Source: Frigoribacterium sp. CG_9.8
Lineage (GTDB): Bacteria > Actinomycetota > Actinomycetes > Actinomycetales > Microbacteriaceae
Assembly: GCF_015751965.1 (NCBI RefSeq)
Contig: NZ_JADOVH010000004.1
Span: forward strand, 186,001-250,000
DNA length: 64,000 nucleotides
Direction: 5' to 3'
Shown here: positions 20,564 through 58,778 of the stretch, piece after piece
How the letters are laid out: every line of letters begins with the position of its first letter
How positions within the stretch are numbered: the stretch's first letter is position 1
Made by a program: the position numbers and the translations under genes
The notes under the pieces: generated by a model
Told to the model about the DNA's origin: nothing
Database searches by the model: none
The model's input: the letters and a program-made list of their open reading frames with translations, nothing else

Positions 20564-20638
20564 GCCCCCTTAGCTCAGCCCGGCCAGAGCAGCTCACTTG
20601 TAATGAGCAGGTCAACGGTTCGAATCCGTTAGGGGGCT
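20564..20638 (+). tRNA. tRNA-Thr (TGT anticodon)
   Basis: A full 75-base cloverleaf: acceptor GCCCCCT/AGGGGGC, D arm GCTC/GAGC, anticodon stem GCTCA/TGAGC with loop CTTGTAA (anticodon TGT at 20599-20601, reading ACA), T arm AACGG-TTCGAAT-CCGTT and discriminator T. CCA is not encoded. Confidence 0.97.
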
Positions 20639-20652
20639 CCGTAATTCGCGAG

Positions 20653-20719
20653 ACCATCTCCCGTTCTTGCGGCCGTCTCGCGATCTCAACATGCGGGTGG
20701 TCGGAAAAACGGGAGGTGG
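20653..20719. repeat. Long-stem inverted repeat element, copy 1
   Basis: ACCATCTCCCGTTCTTGCGG on the left pairs with a GGTCGGAAAAACGGGAGGTG-type arm on the right (a few mismatches, central 20-base loop). It is related to the elements at 31718-31783 and 33389-33456. It lies between tRNA-Thr (+) and the convergent DsbA-like gene (-), so it may end transcripts from both sides. Confidence 0.75.
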
Positions 20720-20729
20720 GTGCTGCAGA

Positions 20730-21653
20730 CTAATTCCCGGTGCCGGCCGATGGGGACGGGCTCGGTGTCGCAGAAGACTTTTCGCTATAGCTGTCTCCAG
20801 CTGCCTTGGACACCGCGGTCGCGAAATCCAGAGCGTTGTCGATGGCACCGTCGTATTTCTTGCCGTTGATAATCACGGTGGGGGTGCTTGCCAGCTTCTT
20901 CACGTCGGTGCCGGCCAGTGGATCCATCGTCGCGCGAGCCGTCGCAGCATTCGTCCAGGACTTGAACCTCTGGTCGGTGATGCAGGTGCCGATCGAATCA
21001 GCTTTGCCCACCTTCGCCTTTTTCGTCAGCGCAATGATCTGGTCATCCGTCAGCCCCTCGGTGTTTTCCTTCGGCTGGTTGACGAACAGCAATGCGCTGA
21101 AGTCGAAGAATTGGTTCGGGGAGAAGTTCGCCACGCAGGCCGCCGCGTTCGCGGCCCGGGTGGAATATTTCTTGCCGAGGGACAACTGGTCAAGGATGGC
21201 CACGGGATGGATCTCGAGAGTCGCGGCACCGGTCGACACCCACTTTTTGATCTGCGCCGCGTTCGTAGCTTCGAAATCGCCGCAGTACGGGCACTGGTAG
21301 TCGATGTAGATGCGCAGGTCTATGACATTGGCAGCGTTGGCTTTCGAGGGCACTGGGGTGCCCTCCGGCTGCAGAGCTGCGGTCGGTACCCCGGCAAAGC
21401 CCTCGCCGATCTTGACGCCGTCACTCAGCATGTTCGCTGGACCAGGGGACGGGGGCCGCACGCTGTCCACAATCACGAGACCGACGACCACAACGATGGC
21501 GACCACTAGGGCGGCGAGGCTGCTCTGCAGGATTACGCGACCGCGACGATCCGTCTTCTTCTGCTGCTCACGGAGCACTCGAGCTTTGTCTCTCGCGGCC
21601 TCTCGTCTCTCGTTCGTGTTGAGACCGCGCTCACTCGAATCGTCGTCGCTCAT
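20730..21653 (-). CDS. Membrane-anchored DsbA-family thioredoxin-like protein
   Basis: This 307-residue protein has a cytoplasmic basic N-terminus with a short coiled coil (RREAARDKARVLREQQKK), a single membrane helix (about 42-63), then an extracytoplasmic thioredoxin/DsbA domain with the redox motif CPYC (in YIDYQCPYCGDFE, about residue 121-124) and the cis-Pro region STPTVIINGKKY. It is predicted to form or isomerise disulfides in exported proteins. It ends in a Ser/Pro-rich tail. An ATG start at 21653 leaves a 240-base divergent gap to the ABC ATPase gene. Confidence 0.9.
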   Translation of the reverse strand: MSDDDSSERGLNTNERREAARDKARVLREQQKKTDRRGRVILQSSLAALVVAIVVVVGLVIVDSVRPPSPGPANMLSDGVKIGEGFAGVPTAALQPEGTPVPSKANAANVIDLRIYIDYQCPYCGDFEATNAAQIKKWVSTGAATLEIHPVAILDQLSLGKKYSTRAANAAACVANFSPNQFFDFSALLFVNQPKENTEGLTDDQIIALTKKAKVGKADSIGTCITDQRFKSWTNAATARATMDPLAGTDVKKLASTPTVIINGKKYDGAIDNALDFATAVSKAAGDSYSEKSSATPSPSPSAGTGN

Positions 21654-21743: not shown

Positions 21744-21838
21744 GGGAAAAAACTAAGACGCCCCCAGGTTTCAGCCCGCGAGATCGATTTCGCCACGGCA
21801 CTACCCGCACACCACTGACATACTAGAGGCGCATTACC

Positions 21839-21876
21839 ATCCATTCACTACGGATCGTCCGGCACGTACCTGCCGG
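21839..21876 (+). promoter_or_regulatory. Two-hairpin 5' leader, candidate msiK RNA motif
   Basis: Two small hairpins lie just before the ribosome site of the ABC ATPase gene: ATCC/GGAT (21839-21842 with 21852-21855) and CCGGCA/TGCCGG (21859-21864 with 21871-21876). A short leader structure of this kind, named msiK RNA, is known in front of actinobacterial msiK genes, and this gene is of that type. I rely on position and the two-hairpin layout; I could not compare with the covariance model. Confidence 0.45.
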
Positions 21877-21894
21877 TGAAGGAGTCTAATAACC

Positions 21895-22989
21895 ATGGCA
21901 TCAGTCACTTTTGATAAAGCCACCCGCCTCTACCCTGGCTCGACGAAACCGGCGGTCGACGCACTCGACCTGCACGTGGCCGACGGCGAGTTTCTCGTTC
22001 TGGTTGGACCATCGGGCTGCGGAAAGTCCACGTCGCTTCGCATGCTGGCCGGTCTCGAAGAGGTCAACGACGGAAATATTCTCATCGGGGATCGCGACGT
22101 CACGGATGTGCCGCCAAAAGATCGTGACATCGCGATGGTGTTTCAAAACTATGCCCTCTACCCGCATATGACCGTTGCCGAGAATATGGGCTTTGCACTC
22201 AAGATCGCCGGCGTCAACAAGGACGAGCGTGCCACCCGCGTACTCGAAGCCGCCAAGCTCCTCGACCTCGAGCCCTATCTCGGCCGCAAGCCGAAGGCTC
22301 TTTCCGGCGGTCAGCGCCAGCGCGTCGCCATGGGTCGTGCGATCGTGCGTCAGCCCCAGGTATTCCTCATGGACGAGCCGCTATCGAACCTCGATGCCAA
22401 GCTGCGCGTGCAGACTCGCACCCAGATCGCATCCCTCCAGCGTCGACTCGGCGTCACCACCGTCTACGTCACCCACGACCAGACCGAGGCGCTCACCATG
22501 GGCGACCGGATCGCCGTGCTGAAGGATGGCGTGCTCCAGCAGGTCGGAACGCCTCGCGACCTCTACGCCAACCCGAAGAACGTCTTCGTTGCAGGCTTCA
22601 TCGGCTCCCCCGCGATGAACCTCTTCACCGCGGACCTCGTCGACGGGGGTCTCAAGTTCGGTACGGCTGTGGCCGCACTCGACCGTTCAACCATGGGCAA
22701 GACCGACAACACGAAGGTCACCATCGGAGTTCGCCCGGAAGATGTGCGCGTCTCCACCTCTGGCGAAGGTCTGCAGGTGGCGGTCGACCTCGTCGAAGAA
22801 CTCGGCGCGGACGGCTACCTCTACGGCCACACCGACATCGACGGCTCGCGCGTTGACCTCGTCGCCCGCGTCGATGGACGTTCGCACCCGAATGCCGGCG
22901 ACACCGTGTACATCCTGCCGGAGCCGGCGCACGTTCACGCGTTCGACATCGAGTCCGGCCACCGCCTCAGCAAGGCCGTGGCCGACTAA
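21895..22989 (+). CDS. Multiple-sugar ABC transporter ATPase (MsiK/MsmK/UgpC type)
   Basis: This 364-residue ATPase energises carbohydrate ABC importers. Seen in order: Walker [11 protein letters not shown] loop [13 protein letters not shown], signature LSGGQRQR, Walker [13 protein letters not shown], switch His VTHDQ and a C-terminal OB/TOBE regulatory domain from about 240. No permeases or binding protein are adjacent. This fits MsiK, a shared ATPase that serves many sugar importers encoded elsewhere. ATG 21895 has a GAAGGAG site, and the gene ends at a strong terminator. Confidence 0.94.
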
Positions 22990-23075: not shown

Positions 23076-24353
23076 ATGAGCGGATCCCTCAACATCACGT
23101 CGGCGACGGTCGATCCCGCACTCCTCGACCTGCCATGGAATCTGCCCCTCGACACCTGGCCGGACAGCGTGATCGCCGCCCTCCCGAAGGGAATCTCCCG
23201 CCATCTCGTTCGTTTCGTGCATCTCAGTGGCTACGTGATCGCGATCAAGGAGACCTCCTCAGAACTCGCGCGACGCGAGTACGAGATGCTCCGCACCCTG
23301 CAGAAGCTGGACGTGCCGTGCGTCGAACCGGTCGCCGTGATCACCAACCGAACGGATGACGAGGGCAGCAAACTCGACTCCGTGCTCGTCACGCGCCATC
23401 TCAAGTTCTCGCTACCGTACCGGGCGCTGTATTCGCAGACCCTGCGCCCAGAAACCGCTACCCGCACGGTCGACGCACTGGCTGTCTTGCTCGTTCGGCT
23501 GCACATCATCGGCTTTTTCTGGGGCGATGTATCACTGTCGAACACACTCTTCCGCCGCGATGCCGGCTCATTCGCCGCCTACCTCGTGGATGCCGAGACC
23601 GGCCAGCTCTACGACGGACTGTCGAACGGCCAGCGCGAAAACGACCTCGAGATCGCCCGTGTCAACATCGCGGGCGAACTGCTCGATTTGGCCGCGGGCG
23701 GGCGACTGGAGGAGGGACTGGATCCCGTCGCGGTCTCAAACGGTATCGTTGCGGCCTATCGGACCCTGTGGAGTGAGCTCACCGGATCCGAATCCTTCTC
23801 CTCCTCCGAACGGTGGCGTATCAACGAGCGGGTTGAACGACTCAACGAGCTCGGATTCGACATCGAGGAGTTGGCGATCAGAACCGACGACACCGGCTCA
23901 CAGGTGCGCATCCAGCCGAAGGTCGTCGATGCCGGACATCACCAGCGCCGCCTGCTTCGCCTCACCGGGCTCGACGCCCAGGAGAACCAGGCCCGCCGTT
24001 TGCTCAACGATCTCGACAGCTACACAGCGACCTTCAACAAACAGGGTGATGACGAAGAGATGGTGGCCCACGAATGGCTCGCCACGGTGTTCGAACCGGT
24101 GATCCGTGCCATCCCCCGCGACCTCAAGGGGCGGCTCGAACCGGCGGAGGTGTTTCACCAACTGCTCGACCACCGGTGGTATCTGTCGCAGAACGAGAAC
24201 CGCGACGTGCCTCTCGCCGAGGCGGTCAGTTCCTACATCGACACGGTGCTGCGACAACGCCAGGACGAGGCGACGGTCATCGCACCGGCGACCGGGACGA
24301 TCACCGTTCCGGTTGACATCATCGCCGAAGACGACTGGCGCTCGAAGGTCTGA
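23076..24353 (+). CDS. DUF4032 protein with a kinase-like fold
   Basis: ATG 23076 (MSGSLNITSATVD) was preferred to GTG 23070 because of the TTAGGCAG site. It gives 425 residues. The N-terminal half shows lipopolysaccharide-kinase-like features: YVIAIKE (the ATP-lysine strand), LVRLHIIGFFWGDVSLSNTLF (catalytic loop with D and N) and AYLVDAETGQL (metal-binding D, usually DFG). The C-terminal part is DUF4032. A small-molecule or protein kinase activity is plausible, but no substrate is known. Confidence 0.82.
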   Translation: MSGSLNITSATVDPALLDLPWNLPLDTWPDSVIAALPKGISRHLVRFVHLSGYVIAIKETSSELARREYEMLRTLQKLDVPCVEPVAVITNRTDDEGSKLDSVLVTRHLKFSLPYRALYSQTLRPETATRTVDALAVLLVRLHIIGFFWGDVSLSNTLFRRDAGSFAAYLVDAETGQLYDGLSNGQRENDLEIARVNIAGELLDLAAGGRLEEGLDPVAVSNGIVAAYRTLWSELTGSESFSSSERWRINERVERLNELGFDIEELAIRTDDTGSQVRIQPKVVDAGHHQRRLLRLTGLDAQENQARRLLNDLDSYTATFNKQGDDEEMVAHEWLATVFEPVIRAIPRDLKGRLEPAEVFHQLLDHRWYLSQNENRDVPLAEAVSSYIDTVLRQRQDEATVIAPATGTITVPVDIIAEDDWRSKV

Positions 24354-31058: not shown

Positions 31059-31712
31059 ATGCGCGAGGTATTCCAGCAGGAACTGGCTGAGGTGCAAGAG
31101 CGCCTCGTCGAAATCGCGGCCCTGGTCGAGACATCGATCGACAACGCCACTCGCGCGTTCAACGAATCGAATGTTGCCCTGGCGGAGACCGTCATCGCCA
31201 ACGATGACAAGATCGATGAAGCATCAATCGCCCTCGACGAGCTGGCCATCAACATCCTCGCCCGCCAACAGCCGGTGGCGCGCGACCTGCGCATCGTCGT
31301 GAGCGCACTGCGCATCAGCGCGTCCCTCGAGCGGATGGGCGACATGTCCGAGCACATCGCGCAGCTCGCCCGCTACCGTTTCCCCGACAAGGTGGTGCCG
31401 AAGTCACTTCGTGCGACCTTCGTGGAGCTCGGCCAACTCGATGTGCAGATCGCGCGAAAGCTCACGCAGCTGCTGCGCACCGAAGACGTGACTATCGCCG
31501 AAGAGATCCGCAACGACGACGACCGAATCGACGCACTGCACCTCAGCGTGTTCGATAAGGTGCTCGGCGAGAGCTGGAAGGGCGCGGCGGTCGACACAGT
31601 GGATGCCACTCTCGCGTCGCGCTACCACGAGCGATTCGCCGACCACGCGGTCTCCATCGCGAAAAAGGTGCAGTACCTGGCAACCGGCGACTGGATCGCT
31701 GCAAAACTCTGA
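31059..31712 (+). CDS. phoU: Phosphate uptake regulator PhoU
   Basis: This 217-residue all-helical protein has two PhoU repeats, with the metal-cluster motif in each half (ALRISASLERMGDMSEHIAQL and RYHERFADHAVSIAKK). PhoU links Pst transport to the SenX3/RegX3 system and keeps it silent when phosphate is plentiful. A ribosome site AAAGGGACG precedes the ATG. It is divergent from senX3, and both share the repeat array. Confidence 0.95.
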   Translation: MREVFQQELAEVQERLVEIAALVETSIDNATRAFNESNVALAETVIANDDKIDEASIALDELAINILARQQPVARDLRIVVSALRISASLERMGDMSEHIAQLARYRFPDKVVPKSLRATFVELGQLDVQIARKLTQLLRTEDVTIAEEIRNDDDRIDALHLSVFDKVLGESWKGAAVDTVDATLASRYHERFADHAVSIAKKVQYLATGDWIAAKL

Positions 31713-31717
31713 GCGTT

Positions 31718-31783
31718 CCGTCTCCCGTTTTTGCTACCACCACCCTGGTATCACAGGTGGGTGGTCGCATAAGTGCGAGACGG
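31718..31783. repeat. Long-stem inverted repeat element, copy 2
   Basis: The left arm begins CCGTCTCCCGTTTTTGC and the right arm ends GTGCGAGACGG; the inner arms CTACCACC and GGTGGTCG also pair. It starts six bases after the phoU stop and ends 12 bases before the gpmA stop, so it fills the convergent gap. Confidence 0.8.
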
Positions 31784-31795
31784 TCGGGGTGTGAG

Positions 31796-32539
31796 TTACT
31801 TTTTACCCTGCGCTGCGACCGCCGCCGCACCGGCCGCAGCGGCTTCGGGGTCGAGGTATCTGCCCGGCTCGATCGGCGCGAAGGTCTCGTCGAGGGTGTA
31901 GACCAGCGGGATGCCAGTGGGGATGTTGAGCTCCGCAATCGCATCATCCGCAATGTGGTCGAGGTGCTTGACCAGGGCGCGCAGCGAGTTGCCGTGTGCG
32001 GTGACGAGTACGGTCTTACCCGCGGCGAGGTCAACGGTGATTTCGGATTCCCAGTAGGGGAGCATTCGGTCGATCACCAGTTTCAGTGATTCGGTTCGCG
32101 GCAGATCGGCACCGAGCCCGGCATAGCGCGGATCATGGGCTTGCGAGAACTCGCTGTCGTCGTCGAGGGGTGGTGGGGGCACGTCGAAGGACCTGCGCCA
32201 GGTCATGAACTGCTCCTGCCCGTATTCGGCAAGTGTCTGCGCCTTATCCTTGCCCTGCAGCGCACCGTAGTGACGCTCGTTGAGCCGCCAGCTGCGTTTC
32301 ACGTCGATCCAATCGCGGTCGGCAACATCCAGGGCGATATCGGCGGTATGAATCGCGCGCTTGAGAACACTGGTGTACTGAATGTCCGGCAGGATGCCGG
32401 ATTGTGCGAGGAGCTCGCCCGCCCGCCTCGCTTCGGTACGTCCCTGCTCACTCAGGTCGACATCCACCCATCCGGTGAAGAGGTTCTTCTGATTCCAATC
32501 GGAGTTGCCGTGGCGCAGGAGAATAAGCGTAAAGGTCAT
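31796..32539 (-). CDS. gpmA: 2,3-bisphosphoglycerate-dependent phosphoglycerate mutase
   Basis: This 247-residue glycolytic enzyme interconverts 3- and 2-phosphoglycerate through a phosphohistidine. [20 protein letters not shown] (catalytic His), the substrate loop [11 protein letters not shown] and [14 protein letters not shown] (second catalytic His) are all present. It ends with an Ala-rich tail. The ATG is 32 bases from the divergent methyltransferase gene. Confidence 0.96.
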
Positions 32540-32571: not shown

Positions 32572-33357
32572 ATGCCCATTGGTTCGATCACCCGTGGGAC
32601 CACCGGCACCAACCGCTTGCGCCGCGTCGACCGGTGGATCGCAGAGCTTTCCGTCTTCCGCCGAACGGCCGATCCGCTGGTGGTCGACCTGGGTTACGGG
32701 GCATCCGCAACGACGACCCTCGAGCTGCACCAGCGGCTTTCTCGGGTTCATCCACGGGTGCTAGTGGTTGGCCTGGAGATCGATCCGGCCCGGGTGACAC
32801 TCGCCGCGCTCTCTGCGCGGGATGGTGTGCGCTTCGCCCACGGCGGCTTCGAGGTGCCACTGCCCGGTGGGCGCTCGGCCACGGTCATCCGCGCCCTCAA
32901 TGTACTTCGGCAATACGACGAATCCGAAGTGCTCGCCGCGTGGCACCTGATGGTATCTCGTCTGGACCCCGGTGGGGTACTGGTCGAAGGCACCTGCAAC
33001 GAGGTGGGGCGTGTAGCCAGTTGGGTGGATGTCACGGCCGAGGGCCCCCGCAGCCTCACCGTCAGTCTGCGCCTTGCCGACCTCGAGCGGCCATCAGTCG
33101 TGGCGGAGCGTCTGCCCAAGGTGCTGATCCATCGCAATGTGCCGGGCGAGCGAGTGCATACCTTCCTGGTGGATCTCGACCGGCACTGGCAGTTCAACGC
33201 CGCACTCTCGGTCTACGGACCGTCGCAGCGGTGGATCGCCACGGCGCAGGGGCTCGTGCACGACGGCTGGCCGGTTCAGGGTGGCCGGTCGCGCTGGAAG
33301 CTCGGCGAACTGACCGTGCATTGGGATGCGGTGGCACCGCAGGGTTTCCAGTGGTGA
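32572..33357 (+). CDS. Class I SAM-dependent methyltransferase-like protein
   Basis: This 261-residue protein has a degenerate SAM-binding motif I (VVDLGYGASATTTLELHQRL), then VVGLEIDPARV (acidic loop for the ribose) and VIRALNVLRQYDESEV. The C-terminal half is actinobacterial and has no known substrate. It is divergent from gpmA. Confidence 0.82.
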   Translation: MPIGSITRGTTGTNRLRRVDRWIAELSVFRRTADPLVVDLGYGASATTTLELHQRLSRVHPRVLVVGLEIDPARVTLAALSARDGVRFAHGGFEVPLPGGRSATVIRALNVLRQYDESEVLAAWHLMVSRLDPGGVLVEGTCNEVGRVASWVDVTAEGPRSLTVSLRLADLERPSVVAERLPKVLIHRNVPGERVHTFLVDLDRHWQFNAALSVYGPSQRWIATAQGLVHDGWPVQGGRSRWKLGELTVHWDAVAPQGFQW

Positions 33358-33388: not shown

Positions 33389-33456
33389 ACCATCTCCCGT
33401 TTTTGCGACCACCTCGCCGTGCCAACAGGGCGGTGGTCGCAAAAACGGGAGGTGGT
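33389..33456. repeat. Long-stem inverted repeat element, copy 3 (25-bp stem)
   Basis: The arms 33389-33413 and 33432-33456 pair over 25 positions with a single G-T wobble, around an 18-base loop. The core CTCCCGTTTTTGCGACCACC is shared with copy 2 and largely with copy 1. It lies between the convergent methyltransferase and FUSC genes. Confidence 0.92.
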
Positions 33457-33484: not shown

Positions 33485-34588
33485 TCACACCTCCGGCAGC
33501 AGCGCCCGCGCCTTCTCGGCCGGGAAATCGGCAGCCATCAGAAGATCGACCAGGAGCGGCCGCATCATGAGGATGACCACCGAGTCCGTCACCGGCGCGC
33601 CCTTGACAACGGTGTCGGGCCGAAGTCGCTCGGCGACCGCAACGAGTCCGACCCGCACGGTGTCTGCCAGCAGAGGATCATCGAGGCTCTGTCCAAGCAA
33701 CTCCACCGAGGTTGTCAGGCTCGCCATGATCGATCCGATCACAGGGCGTGGAACATCGTCGCGCACAAGGAAGTCGATGCGCCGCGCAATCACCCGCAGA
33801 TTTCGGGTGGCGAGGTCCATGCCGCGCAGCACCCGCGCCTGCGCCTGCAGATCCGGGCGCCGCCGATAGAGAAATGGCGAGATCCGAGCGATGGCTACGC
33901 CGGAGTCGACGGATGCCGCCCAGTTGTCGATGATCGGCTGGGTGCTGCGCAGGCGTTCGAGAGCGTGCTCAGCGGCCGGCTGGTCGGCTTTATCCAACGC
34001 GACGACAAGGGAGCCGAGTGCGTCAGTGAGCGACGCGAAGAGTGCGCGGGCATCCCGGCGCGTGAAGCGACGCGAATCCCTCGGCACGAGCGCAGTGACG
34101 AGCAGCGCAACGATGCCGCCGACGATGCCGTCGATGCTGCGAACGAATGGACCACCCGGAGGAGCGGGCAACAGCATGACGAGTATCGCCTGCACCCCGG
34201 CAGCCACAGCGAAGGCGTTGCTCGGCGACAGCGCACGCGCCACCACCAGGGTCACCAGGAGCACGAGGGCGAGTTGCCACACGCCCTGGCCCACCGTGAG
34301 AAGCAGAGCCTCACTGAGCGCGATGCCAATCACGATGCCGATCGCCGTCTCGAGCACCCGGATGGGGCGGGCATCCCGCGCAAAGCCGAGGGTCGAAATG
34401 GTCACCGTGACAGCGATCAGCGGAACCGGGTGGTCGAGCCCGTAGCGCGCGAAAGCGTAGGCAGCGGATGCCGCGATCACGATCTGCAGCGCGGGCACGA
34501 GTGATTCGATCACGCGCTGCCCCGGGGCACGGAGGTCGAACAGGTGCGGTACGACCGAGCGCAGCCTGCCCACGATCATCCTCAGCAC
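33485..34588 (-). CDS. FUSC-family membrane protein
   Basis: This 367-residue membrane protein (GTG 34588; ATG 34579 is an alternative) has about six hydrophobic helices in the first 160 residues with the FUSC/aromatic-acid-exporter pattern (VPALQIVIAASAAYAFARYG, VLETAIGIVIGIALSEA), followed by a soluble helical C-terminal domain. The family is linked to efflux of aromatic or fusaric acid-like compounds. It begins 8-17 bases beyond the ygfZ stop, so the nitrobindin, ygfZ and FUSC genes form one operon. Confidence 0.85.
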   Translation of the reverse strand: MLRMIVGRLRSVVPHLFDLRAPGQRVIESLVPALQIVIAASAAYAFARYGLDHPVPLIAVTVTISTLGFARDARPIRVLETAIGIVIGIALSEALLLTVGQGVWQLALVLLVTLVVARALSPSNAFAVAAGVQAILVMLLPAPPGGPFVRSIDGIVGGIVALLVTALVPRDSRRFTRRDARALFASLTDALGSLVVALDKADQPAAEHALERLRSTQPIIDNWAASVDSGVAIARISPFLYRRRPDLQAQARVLRGMDLATRNLRVIARRIDFLVRDDVPRPVIGSIMASLTTSVELLGQSLDDPLLADTVRVGLVAVAERLRPDTVVKGAPVTDSVVILMMRPLLVDLLMAADFPAEKARALLPEV

Positions 34589-48719: not shown

Positions 48720-48760
48720 CCGCTCAGCCTAAGCGCTCGCACCGCAGGGAAACATGTAGC

Positions 48761-48936
48761 GCCGAGTTGCCCGCAATGGCCGCTTCGCCATCGCGGAAAG
48801 CCCGCATTTCGGGCAACCCGGCACGACATCGCGGGCAACCCGGCGAGACAGTGCGGGCAACCCGGCGGACATCGCGGGGAACTCGGCACGACATCGCGGG
48901 CAACCCGGCGAGACAGTGCGCGCAACTCGGCGAGTA
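48761..48936. repeat. Six 21-22-bp tandem repeats plus an inverted copy
   Basis: Units with the core GCGGGCAACCCGGC lie at 48806, 48828, 48850, 48871, 48893 and 48915. Units 1-3 and 4-6 form a duplicated block of about 65 bases, and units 2 and 5 are identical. GCCGAGTTGCCCGCA at 48761-48775 is the reverse complement of the core. It is between a minus-strand gene start and tRNA-Lys. Confidence 0.92.
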
Positions 48937-58518: not shown

Positions 58519-58567
58519 CTGGATGACTCCTCTTGGCGTGACCGGATCAGGACGAAGGGTTATCCGG

Positions 58568-58648
58568 TTCGGCCCAGGCGAACGGCCGAAACGTGGAGGT
58601 GATCACTCCCTGATGGGTACCCATCCGAACGCCAGTCGTGATGGACCA
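58568..58648 (-). promoter_or_regulatory. ZTP riboswitch (pfl motif) upstream of glyA
   Basis: On the minus strand the leader has the pfl hallmarks in order: a P1 strand, then CGACTGGCG (58630-58638), a hairpin with ATGGGTACCCAT, GGGAG, the P1 return GTGATCACC, and a final hairpin containing CGCCTGGGC with stem TTCGGCC/GGCCGAA. ZTP riboswitches sense the purine intermediate ZMP/ZTP that builds up when 10-formyl-THF is low, and switch on glyA, folD and similar genes. A later ACCGGAT/ATCCGGT hairpin before the ribosome site could be the expression platform. Confidence 0.87.
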
Positions 58649-58778
58649 AGTCTAAAGGGCATCACCGACCGCTCGGGTGGGATATCCGCGAATTTGACTG
58701 CCCACCCGCAACATCCAGATAGACCGTCCACTCCCTGTCCTATGCTCAAGCTTCGTCACACCCGAACCAAGGACAGCC

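Follow-up and report, generated by a model that had tools for sequence, protein, structure and literature searches.

The analyzed window is a stretch of 64,000 nucleotides from Frigoribacterium sp. CG_9.8, whose genome of 2.85 Mb is designated G000; other G numbers denote its relatives, and L numbers denote the sequence stretches that were read. Genes were called with our own codon-usage caller, and tRNAs were added. Three hairpins of the window belong to a palindrome family named here family A; they have no strand, and each lies between facing transcription units. Copy 1 (20653–20720) was found between a tRNA-Thr(TGT) gene (plus strand, 20564–20640) and a thioredoxin/DsbA-like gene (minus strand, ending at 20730). 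Copy 2 (31717–31784) separates phoU (plus strand, 31059–31712) from a gene of a gpmA-like histidine phosphatase (minus strand, 31796–32539), and the same site was occupied in the relatives G003 and G007. Copy 3 (33389–33456), with a near-perfect stem, is located between a plus-strand gene (32572–33357), which was called a methyltransferase in the original prediction and had no Pfam match, and a FUSC-domain gene (minus strand, 33485–34573). No counterpart of copy 3 was found after the same gene in the 10 relatives read, 7 of which still had the FUSC gene nearby. Two Rfam matches were also found in the window: an msiK RNA (plus strand, 21832–21890) just before an ORF at 21895 and a ZMP/ZTP riboswitch (minus strand, 58565–58649).

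The original prediction of three related elements sharing arms was correct at all three places. The arm sequence CTCCCGTTTTTGC, allowing up to 2 mismatches, had 5 matches in the window, every one within the three elements, against a mean of 0.91 per shuffle of the window, and 0 of 100 shuffles reached 5. Plus-strand folding of copies 1, 2, and 3 was better than that of 200 shuffles each, with z values of −5.1, −3.9, and −8.8, respectively. The 25-bp stem with one wobble predicted for copy 3 was as described; this copy is unusually perfect because a three-base step within the stem is frequently mismatched in the other copies.

Genome-wide, the 13-mer CTCCCGTTTTTGC with up to 1 mismatch had 23 matches versus 2 for a reversed control. 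A covariance model built from 15 copies and then run on the own genome yielded 21 elements, distributed over contigs C1 (7), C2 (2), C3 (1), C4 (5, including all three of the window), C5 (5), and C6 (1); thus, the genome-wide count proposed earlier gives more than three copies. The unit is a quasi-palindrome of about 69 bp with the structure TCCACC-TCCCGTTTTT-NNN-ACCACC-18 nt-GGTGGT-NNN-AAAAACGGGA-GGTGGA, in which the ACCACC boxes of the arms stand at a fixed spacing. In total, 77 copies were read from four genomes: 21 from G000, 19 from G003, 14 from G007, and 23 of about 30 from G009. After exclusion of the indel-shifted copies in L124 and L141, the remaining 75 of 77 gave a gap-free alignment of 74 columns, the length being fixed, with a consensus beginning with CATCCACC and ending with GGTGGATG. 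The two arms covary: 178 compensated cells were counted versus 102.7 ± 7.0 in shuffles, 0 of 500 of which reached 178, and double changes occurred in 26 of 34 stem pairs, these counts being inflated by the relatedness of the copies. With 15 own copies alone, the covariation was weak, as 14 of 500 shuffles reached the score and 153 of 500 the count of stem pairs with double changes. Short tandem repeats of the element ends adjoin several copies (L190, L141, and L102:4640–4705), as if the hairpin provoked replication slippage. MAG contigs end at or beside the repeats (L118:1–36, L125:4880–4908, and the contig ends of L149 and L160); therefore, draft genomes give minimum copy numbers only.

The claim that such elements occur only between convergent genes did not hold: among the 21 copies of G000, 14 were convergent (including tRNA-Thr/DsbA-like and tRNA-Leu/PntB), 7 codirectional, and none divergent. 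The suggested bias to convergent 3′ ends was borne out, since the window background comprised 13 convergent pairs in 60 gene pairs (P = 1.2e-5); backgrounds from element-centred stretches gave smaller P values, but these leave out element-bearing pairs. Convergent copies made up 13 of 19 in G003, 10 of 14 in G007, and 13 of 22 in G009, the last genome also having 4 divergent copies, plus another located at the edge of a contig. Over all four genomes, 76 typed copies were divided into 50 convergent, 22 codirectional, and 4 divergent. At convergent sites, the median distance from a copy to the stop codon was 27 nt (tRNAs not counted). No copy was located wholly within a called gene; one (L098:8095) extends over the final 54 nt of a gene, and another (L092:4625) over the initial 8–9 nt of a different gene. 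None of 15 terminator-like sites at 18–36 kb of the window coincided with the three elements, which lack a U-tail, and U and A runs were located inside the element arms. The best hairpin in convergent gaps had a median z of −5.2 with an element (n = 14) versus −0.55 without one (n = 18). A terminator role of the family A hairpins is plausible. Polarity of the loop along the contig was considered and dropped because of a leave-one-out orientation test (14/21, 11/18, 7/13, and 12/23).

Family A was carried by 4 of 13 genus genomes (G000, G003, G007, and G009), some genus genomes being drafts of 64–82% completeness, and by 0 of 47 other genomes of the same search. The same four were the carriers among 398 family genomes (85 genera), and G000 was the sole carrier among 396 genomes of the order-level search; both searches scored 12 candidates per genome under strict filters. 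Through neighboring proteins, 13 copies of G000 were paired by hand with copies of G003 or G007. At these sites, the elements were 77% identical and their 60-nt flanks 53.5%, versus 52% for unrelated flanks, so that the flanks are saturated; in 11 pairs between G003 and G007, the elements were 91% and the flanks 67% identical. Thus, either selection or repeated conversion keeps family A elements in place. In a search for arms in four genomes, element pairs, adjacent partial copies, and a few single matches with 3 mismatches were found. At the element-free sites of relatives, the flanks were too diverged to define a target-site duplication.

In an eight-gene tree with partial outgroups, G005 grouped with G000 (0.988; UFBoot 90), a placement left unresolved by an earlier three-protein tree (support 0.036). 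G005 is near-complete (two contigs), and no family A copy was found in it in the genus or family search; searching 40 kb of this genome without filters gave nothing convincing (best E 0.11). As a near-complete sister of G000 without copies, G005 has therefore probably lost family A. At its phoU/gpmA site, G005 had only a modest hairpin, and at the 3′ end of its DsbA-like gene, in a rearranged neighborhood, a different terminator-like hairpin (GGCCGGACCC..GGGTCCGGCCTTTCT) was found. A convergent lyase/ADH site carried family A in G000, G003, and G007; a GGTCGAGTAGC-armed repeat in G005, G004, and G011; and, in G001, the repeat family of that genome's own nuclease homologue (L192, E 8e-9). Exact matches to GGTCGAGTAGCG, which was noticed in L195, L196, and L191 and counted genus-wide, numbered 66 in G012, 61 in G004, 50 in G011, 10 in G000, and 2–4 in G003, G007, and G009. 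An exact 20-mer in Caulobacterales was a lone arm with 52.7% GC and no blastn match to the other loci compared, and it was taken as chance. Carriage by viruses, plasmids, or phages was rejected, the element and the arm having no match there. Loss of SbcD as a cause was rejected as well: no SbcD match was obtained in G000, G003, G005, G007, and four others, and no clean pattern results because the carrier G009 has SbcD.

Outside the window, two family A copies bracket a gene encoding a protein of 318 aa (G000:C1:305748–306704), a putative nuclease of the AbiEi-like/DUF559 type, one copy lying upstream of the gene and the other just past its stop codon. Its neighbors are genes of a pyridine-nucleotide-disulphide oxidoreductase and a biotin carboxylase, and no AbiEii toxin gene adjoins it. 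In G003, the same gene was likewise bracketed, and in both G000 and G003 the two copies were read whole. The gene of G007 was bracketed as well; there, the second copy is cut short by a contig end. G009 has two gene pieces that stop at contig edges next to copies and that we take to be halves of a single gene; the neighbor visible in that genome differs. Orthologues with at least 72% identity were found in the four carriers only, and other genus genomes gave homologues of at most 53% or none. The nearest non-carrier homologues (52–53%; G001, G002, and G012) occupy the same locus, after an lpd-like and before an accC-like gene, the flanks being judged by eye. No relative of the nuclease-like protein was found in viral contigs, and no phage match was obtained. 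Between G003 and G007, the gene had dN of 0.036 and dS of 0.325, and it looks to be under purifying selection.

The N-terminal region of the G000 protein is AbiEi-like (PADLOC, E 4.8e-12), AbiEi being matched in 14 of 14 members. In the C-terminal half, D244, E255, D257, G258, and K261 were invariant among 14 homologues, and a catalytic role of these residues is predicted; with 26 members aligned, D244 and G258 remained invariant and E255 nearly so. Pfam matches (E ≤ 1) in 26 diverse members were AbiEi_4 (10), REase_MTES_1575 (7, best 5.2e-5), and DUF559 (6, best 3.2e-6). The family A protein itself matched AbiEi_4 only, weakly (0.005), and is tied to DUF559 and REase_MTES_1575 solely by alignment. 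We take its C-terminal motif to resemble Vsr/DUF559 cores, which the Pfam matches partly bear out. A PDB profile search gave an endonuclease-like protein at E 0.34, below unrelated dehydrogenases at 0.17–0.2; this match being weak, the nuclease fold is inferred, and the C-terminal domain is a putative PD-(D/E)XK nuclease.

Homologues of this gene have repeats of their own. Most are flanked on both sides by repeats, often palindromic, which are alike within a gene and differ between gene groups. Each gene was scored by its best local alignment, direct or inverted, between up to 330 bases upstream and 230 bases downstream. The 45 rows of the homologue set were counted as 43 genes, all of which were read; L203, L246, and L248 lacked one flank, leaving 40 testable. 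A match of at least 31 was found in 36 of the 40 testable genus homologues, which are not independent of each other because orthologue groups are among them. The exceptions were L205 (28), L239 (30), L245 (28), and L242 (19), and weak scores of 31–38 were shown by L213, L226, L243, L234, L210, L224, L230, L238, L209, and L223. The cut of 31 was set on the first 13 homologues (12 of which pass), and 24 of 27 later ones pass. Among 446 control genes, taken only from stretches of G000, G003, G005, G007, and G009, 5 reached 31, the rest scoring at most 30; L090 and L130 were the family A enzyme gene itself, and L089, L128, and L134 were genes between family A copies. The last are a sugar-transporter MFS gene (L089:4874–6675; also L128) and an epimerase gene (L134:3875–5025), each bracketed by two family A copies, perhaps as cargo or by chance; therefore, bracketing alone does not prove partnership. 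Matches in both the direct and inverted senses (at least 26) were found in 23 of the first 31 homologues versus 6 of 446 controls, five of these 6 being the same five that reached 31. The other 8 of the first 31 fell below 26 in one sense; therefore, the brackets cannot all be called palindromic.

Outside the genus, in homologues from a plasmid-collection search, matching repeats on both sides were found in three of the four Tsukamurella and Collinsella homologues (Tsukamurella L214, 111, and L215, 87; Collinsella L217, 91), the exception being Tsukamurella L216 (22). The Tsukamurella 'plasmids' NZ_LR134451.1, NZ_LR134465.1, and NZ_LR134463.1 carry the housekeeping genes tatB and pdxS and look like mislabelled chromosome pieces. 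A motif scan in Collinsella yielded 13 palindromes, each 59 bp long, within 50 kb around the nuclease homologue, 12 of them in arrays with a period of about 80 bp (L218:16235–16454, 22005–22144, 23248–23547, and 31073–31291); the reversed motif gave 5 matches versus 27. Two other 50-kb Collinsella stretches contained no such palindromes. One array and one single copy in L218 are located between divergent genes. Five other families had further copies elsewhere in their genomes. Such copies were found for the families of L213/L225 (two in L124, one in L132, two in L135), L221 (L102:2452), L233 (L187:11562), and L224 (L137 and L134, weak); the family of L240 by eye resembles L142:8241. The L226 family had one further match, within a gene. 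In the small samples searched for 11 homologues (L204, L206, L207, L209, L210, L211, L212, L223, L231, L232, and L238), no further copy was found. The window itself contains an imperfect palindrome with GAGTTGC arms upstream of a tRNA-Lys gene (48755–48828), by eye like the GAGTTGC repeats that bracket the nuclease homologues of G005, G001, and G012.

As a whole, these data are best explained, in our judgment with somewhat better than even probability, if the window hairpins are non-autonomous copies of family A that belong with one gene of an AbiEi-like plus DUF559/REase-type enzyme, in the manner of the REP/RAYT 'REPtrons'. The N-terminal AbiEi-like winged-helix domain would recognize its cognate palindrome, and the nuclease would cut or nick the palindrome, probably in its hairpin or cruciform form, or else a related target. 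The palindrome would then be spread or restored by repair or copying. Copies would persist where neither a promoter nor a gene is broken, mostly between the 3′ ends of facing genes, and the transcript hairpin may serve both genes as a terminator without a U-tail or as a 3′-end cap, which hosts tolerate or use. Different homologues would own different palindrome families. What the sequences themselves show is association, dispersal, 3′-end placement, conservation in place, and covarying stems; recognition, cutting, copying, and termination are predicted steps.

REPtrons combine RAYTs with REP/BIME elements, which are short dispersed palindromes found mostly between convergent and codirectional genes; as in family A, the enzyme gene is flanked by its own repeat, and a genome may have several families and enzymes (PMC3733652). 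The word Actinobacteria is absent from the main text of that paper (PMC3733652). The enzymes are unrelated: the Y1 (IS200/IS605-like) transposase of REP elements stands against the AbiEi+DUF559/REase-type protein of family A. No Y1 transposase (PF01797) was found in the 13 genus genomes, the control search giving matches in 5 of 14 known genomes. Neither a GTAG nor a CGTC tag is present in the family A consensus, and its length of 69 bp differs from the 20–40 reported for REPs (PMC3733652). Thus, the REP type proposed originally stands as regards dispersal, intergenic position, gene 3′ ends, and presence or absence among relatives, but not as regards the transposase, the tag, and the length; likewise, the proposed look for a linked transposase gave no Y1/RAYT protein in the 13 genomes, and the linked gene, outside the window, is that of the AbiEi/DUF559-type putative nuclease.

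It is unlikely that the palindromes are host bidirectional terminators, i.e., selected hairpins of RNA 3′ ends without a U-tail, with the enzyme gene merely among or inserted into them. The placement close to stop codons, the conservation in place at 13 paired sites, the strong hairpins of element-bearing gaps, and the different hairpin at the DsbA-like 3′ end of G005 agree with such terminators. U-lacking (I-shaped, HS-U-lack) terminators of GC-rich bacteria, reported in Streptomyces, are likewise strong GC-rich hairpins just past stop codons (PMC8269248). Family A differs from them as a sequence-specific repeat family of uniform length that is linked to an enzyme gene. Termination accounts neither for sequence-specific families, nor for a length kept constant in 75 of 77 copies, nor for enzyme genes bracketed by matching families. 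The U-tail is absent, and selection on the RNA strand was given no support by sense-strand G-U and A-C mismatches at codirectional sites, which were equal (43 versus 47).

There is likewise little probability that the AbiEi-like domain is an autoregulator and the palindromes its operators, dispersed copies acting without mobility as decoys, roadblocks, or in a nucleoid role. AbiEi of the AbiE type IV toxin–antitoxin system, which the N-terminal part resembles, is reported to bind inverted repeats of its own promoter (PMC7319586), and palindromes upstream of the gene and ACCACC boxes at fixed spacing would suit an operator. However, palindromes also stand just past the stop codon, divergent promoters are free of dispersed family A copies in three of the four genomes, and the nuclease-type domain, fused in the place of an adjoining toxin gene, has no part in this explanation.

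MITEs (Correia, RUP, NEMIS) are small non-autonomous elements with inverted repeats. That family A is the MITE of an ordinary, since-lost transposase, with the enzyme gene as a passenger, is very improbable. Its short, non-autonomous inverted-repeat form, site differences among relatives, and patchy distribution are MITE-like, but it is nearly fully palindromic and has neither a parent insertion sequence found nor a defined target duplication. Besides the bracketed genes, no longer element with family A ends was found in the four genomes searched for arms. Of 40 flanking genes, 33 had a Pfam match, none of them being a transposase, and several distinct repeat families bracket members of one enzyme family. 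Equally remote is a DNA-level host site (gyrase, nucleoid protein, or replication) with no dedicated enzyme: the lack of strand preference and the rigid box spacing agree with it, but family A was found in only 4 of 398 family genomes and not in the near-complete G005, a likely sister species.

Returning to the enzyme-linked repeat family, we see about an even chance that it represents a widespread class in Actinomycetota, selfish or domesticated, in which each AbiEi-REase-type protein recognizes a long-palindrome family of its own and, through cleavage, either propagates or maintains it. Such palindromes would colonize the ends of convergent genes, and wholesale replacement upon a change of enzyme would make relatives differ at the same site. 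The open-access literature searched contained no description of the sequence, as the original prediction had supposed, and no link between such palindromes and such an enzyme. The matching repeats around most relatives of the gene in the genus suggest a repeat-plus-enzyme system in actinobacteria that is undescribed. To our knowledge, no engine is known for dispersed palindromes in actinobacteria. Genes that now carry only the annotation 'AbiEi antitoxin' or 'hypothetical' would become known as partners of repeat families, and the use of a REase-type enzyme instead of a Y1 enzyme would mean that the task of REP/RAYT has been solved a second time, independently. The system would offer a direct test of repeat-family turnover at gene ends, with many natural enzyme/target pairs supplied by the homologues.
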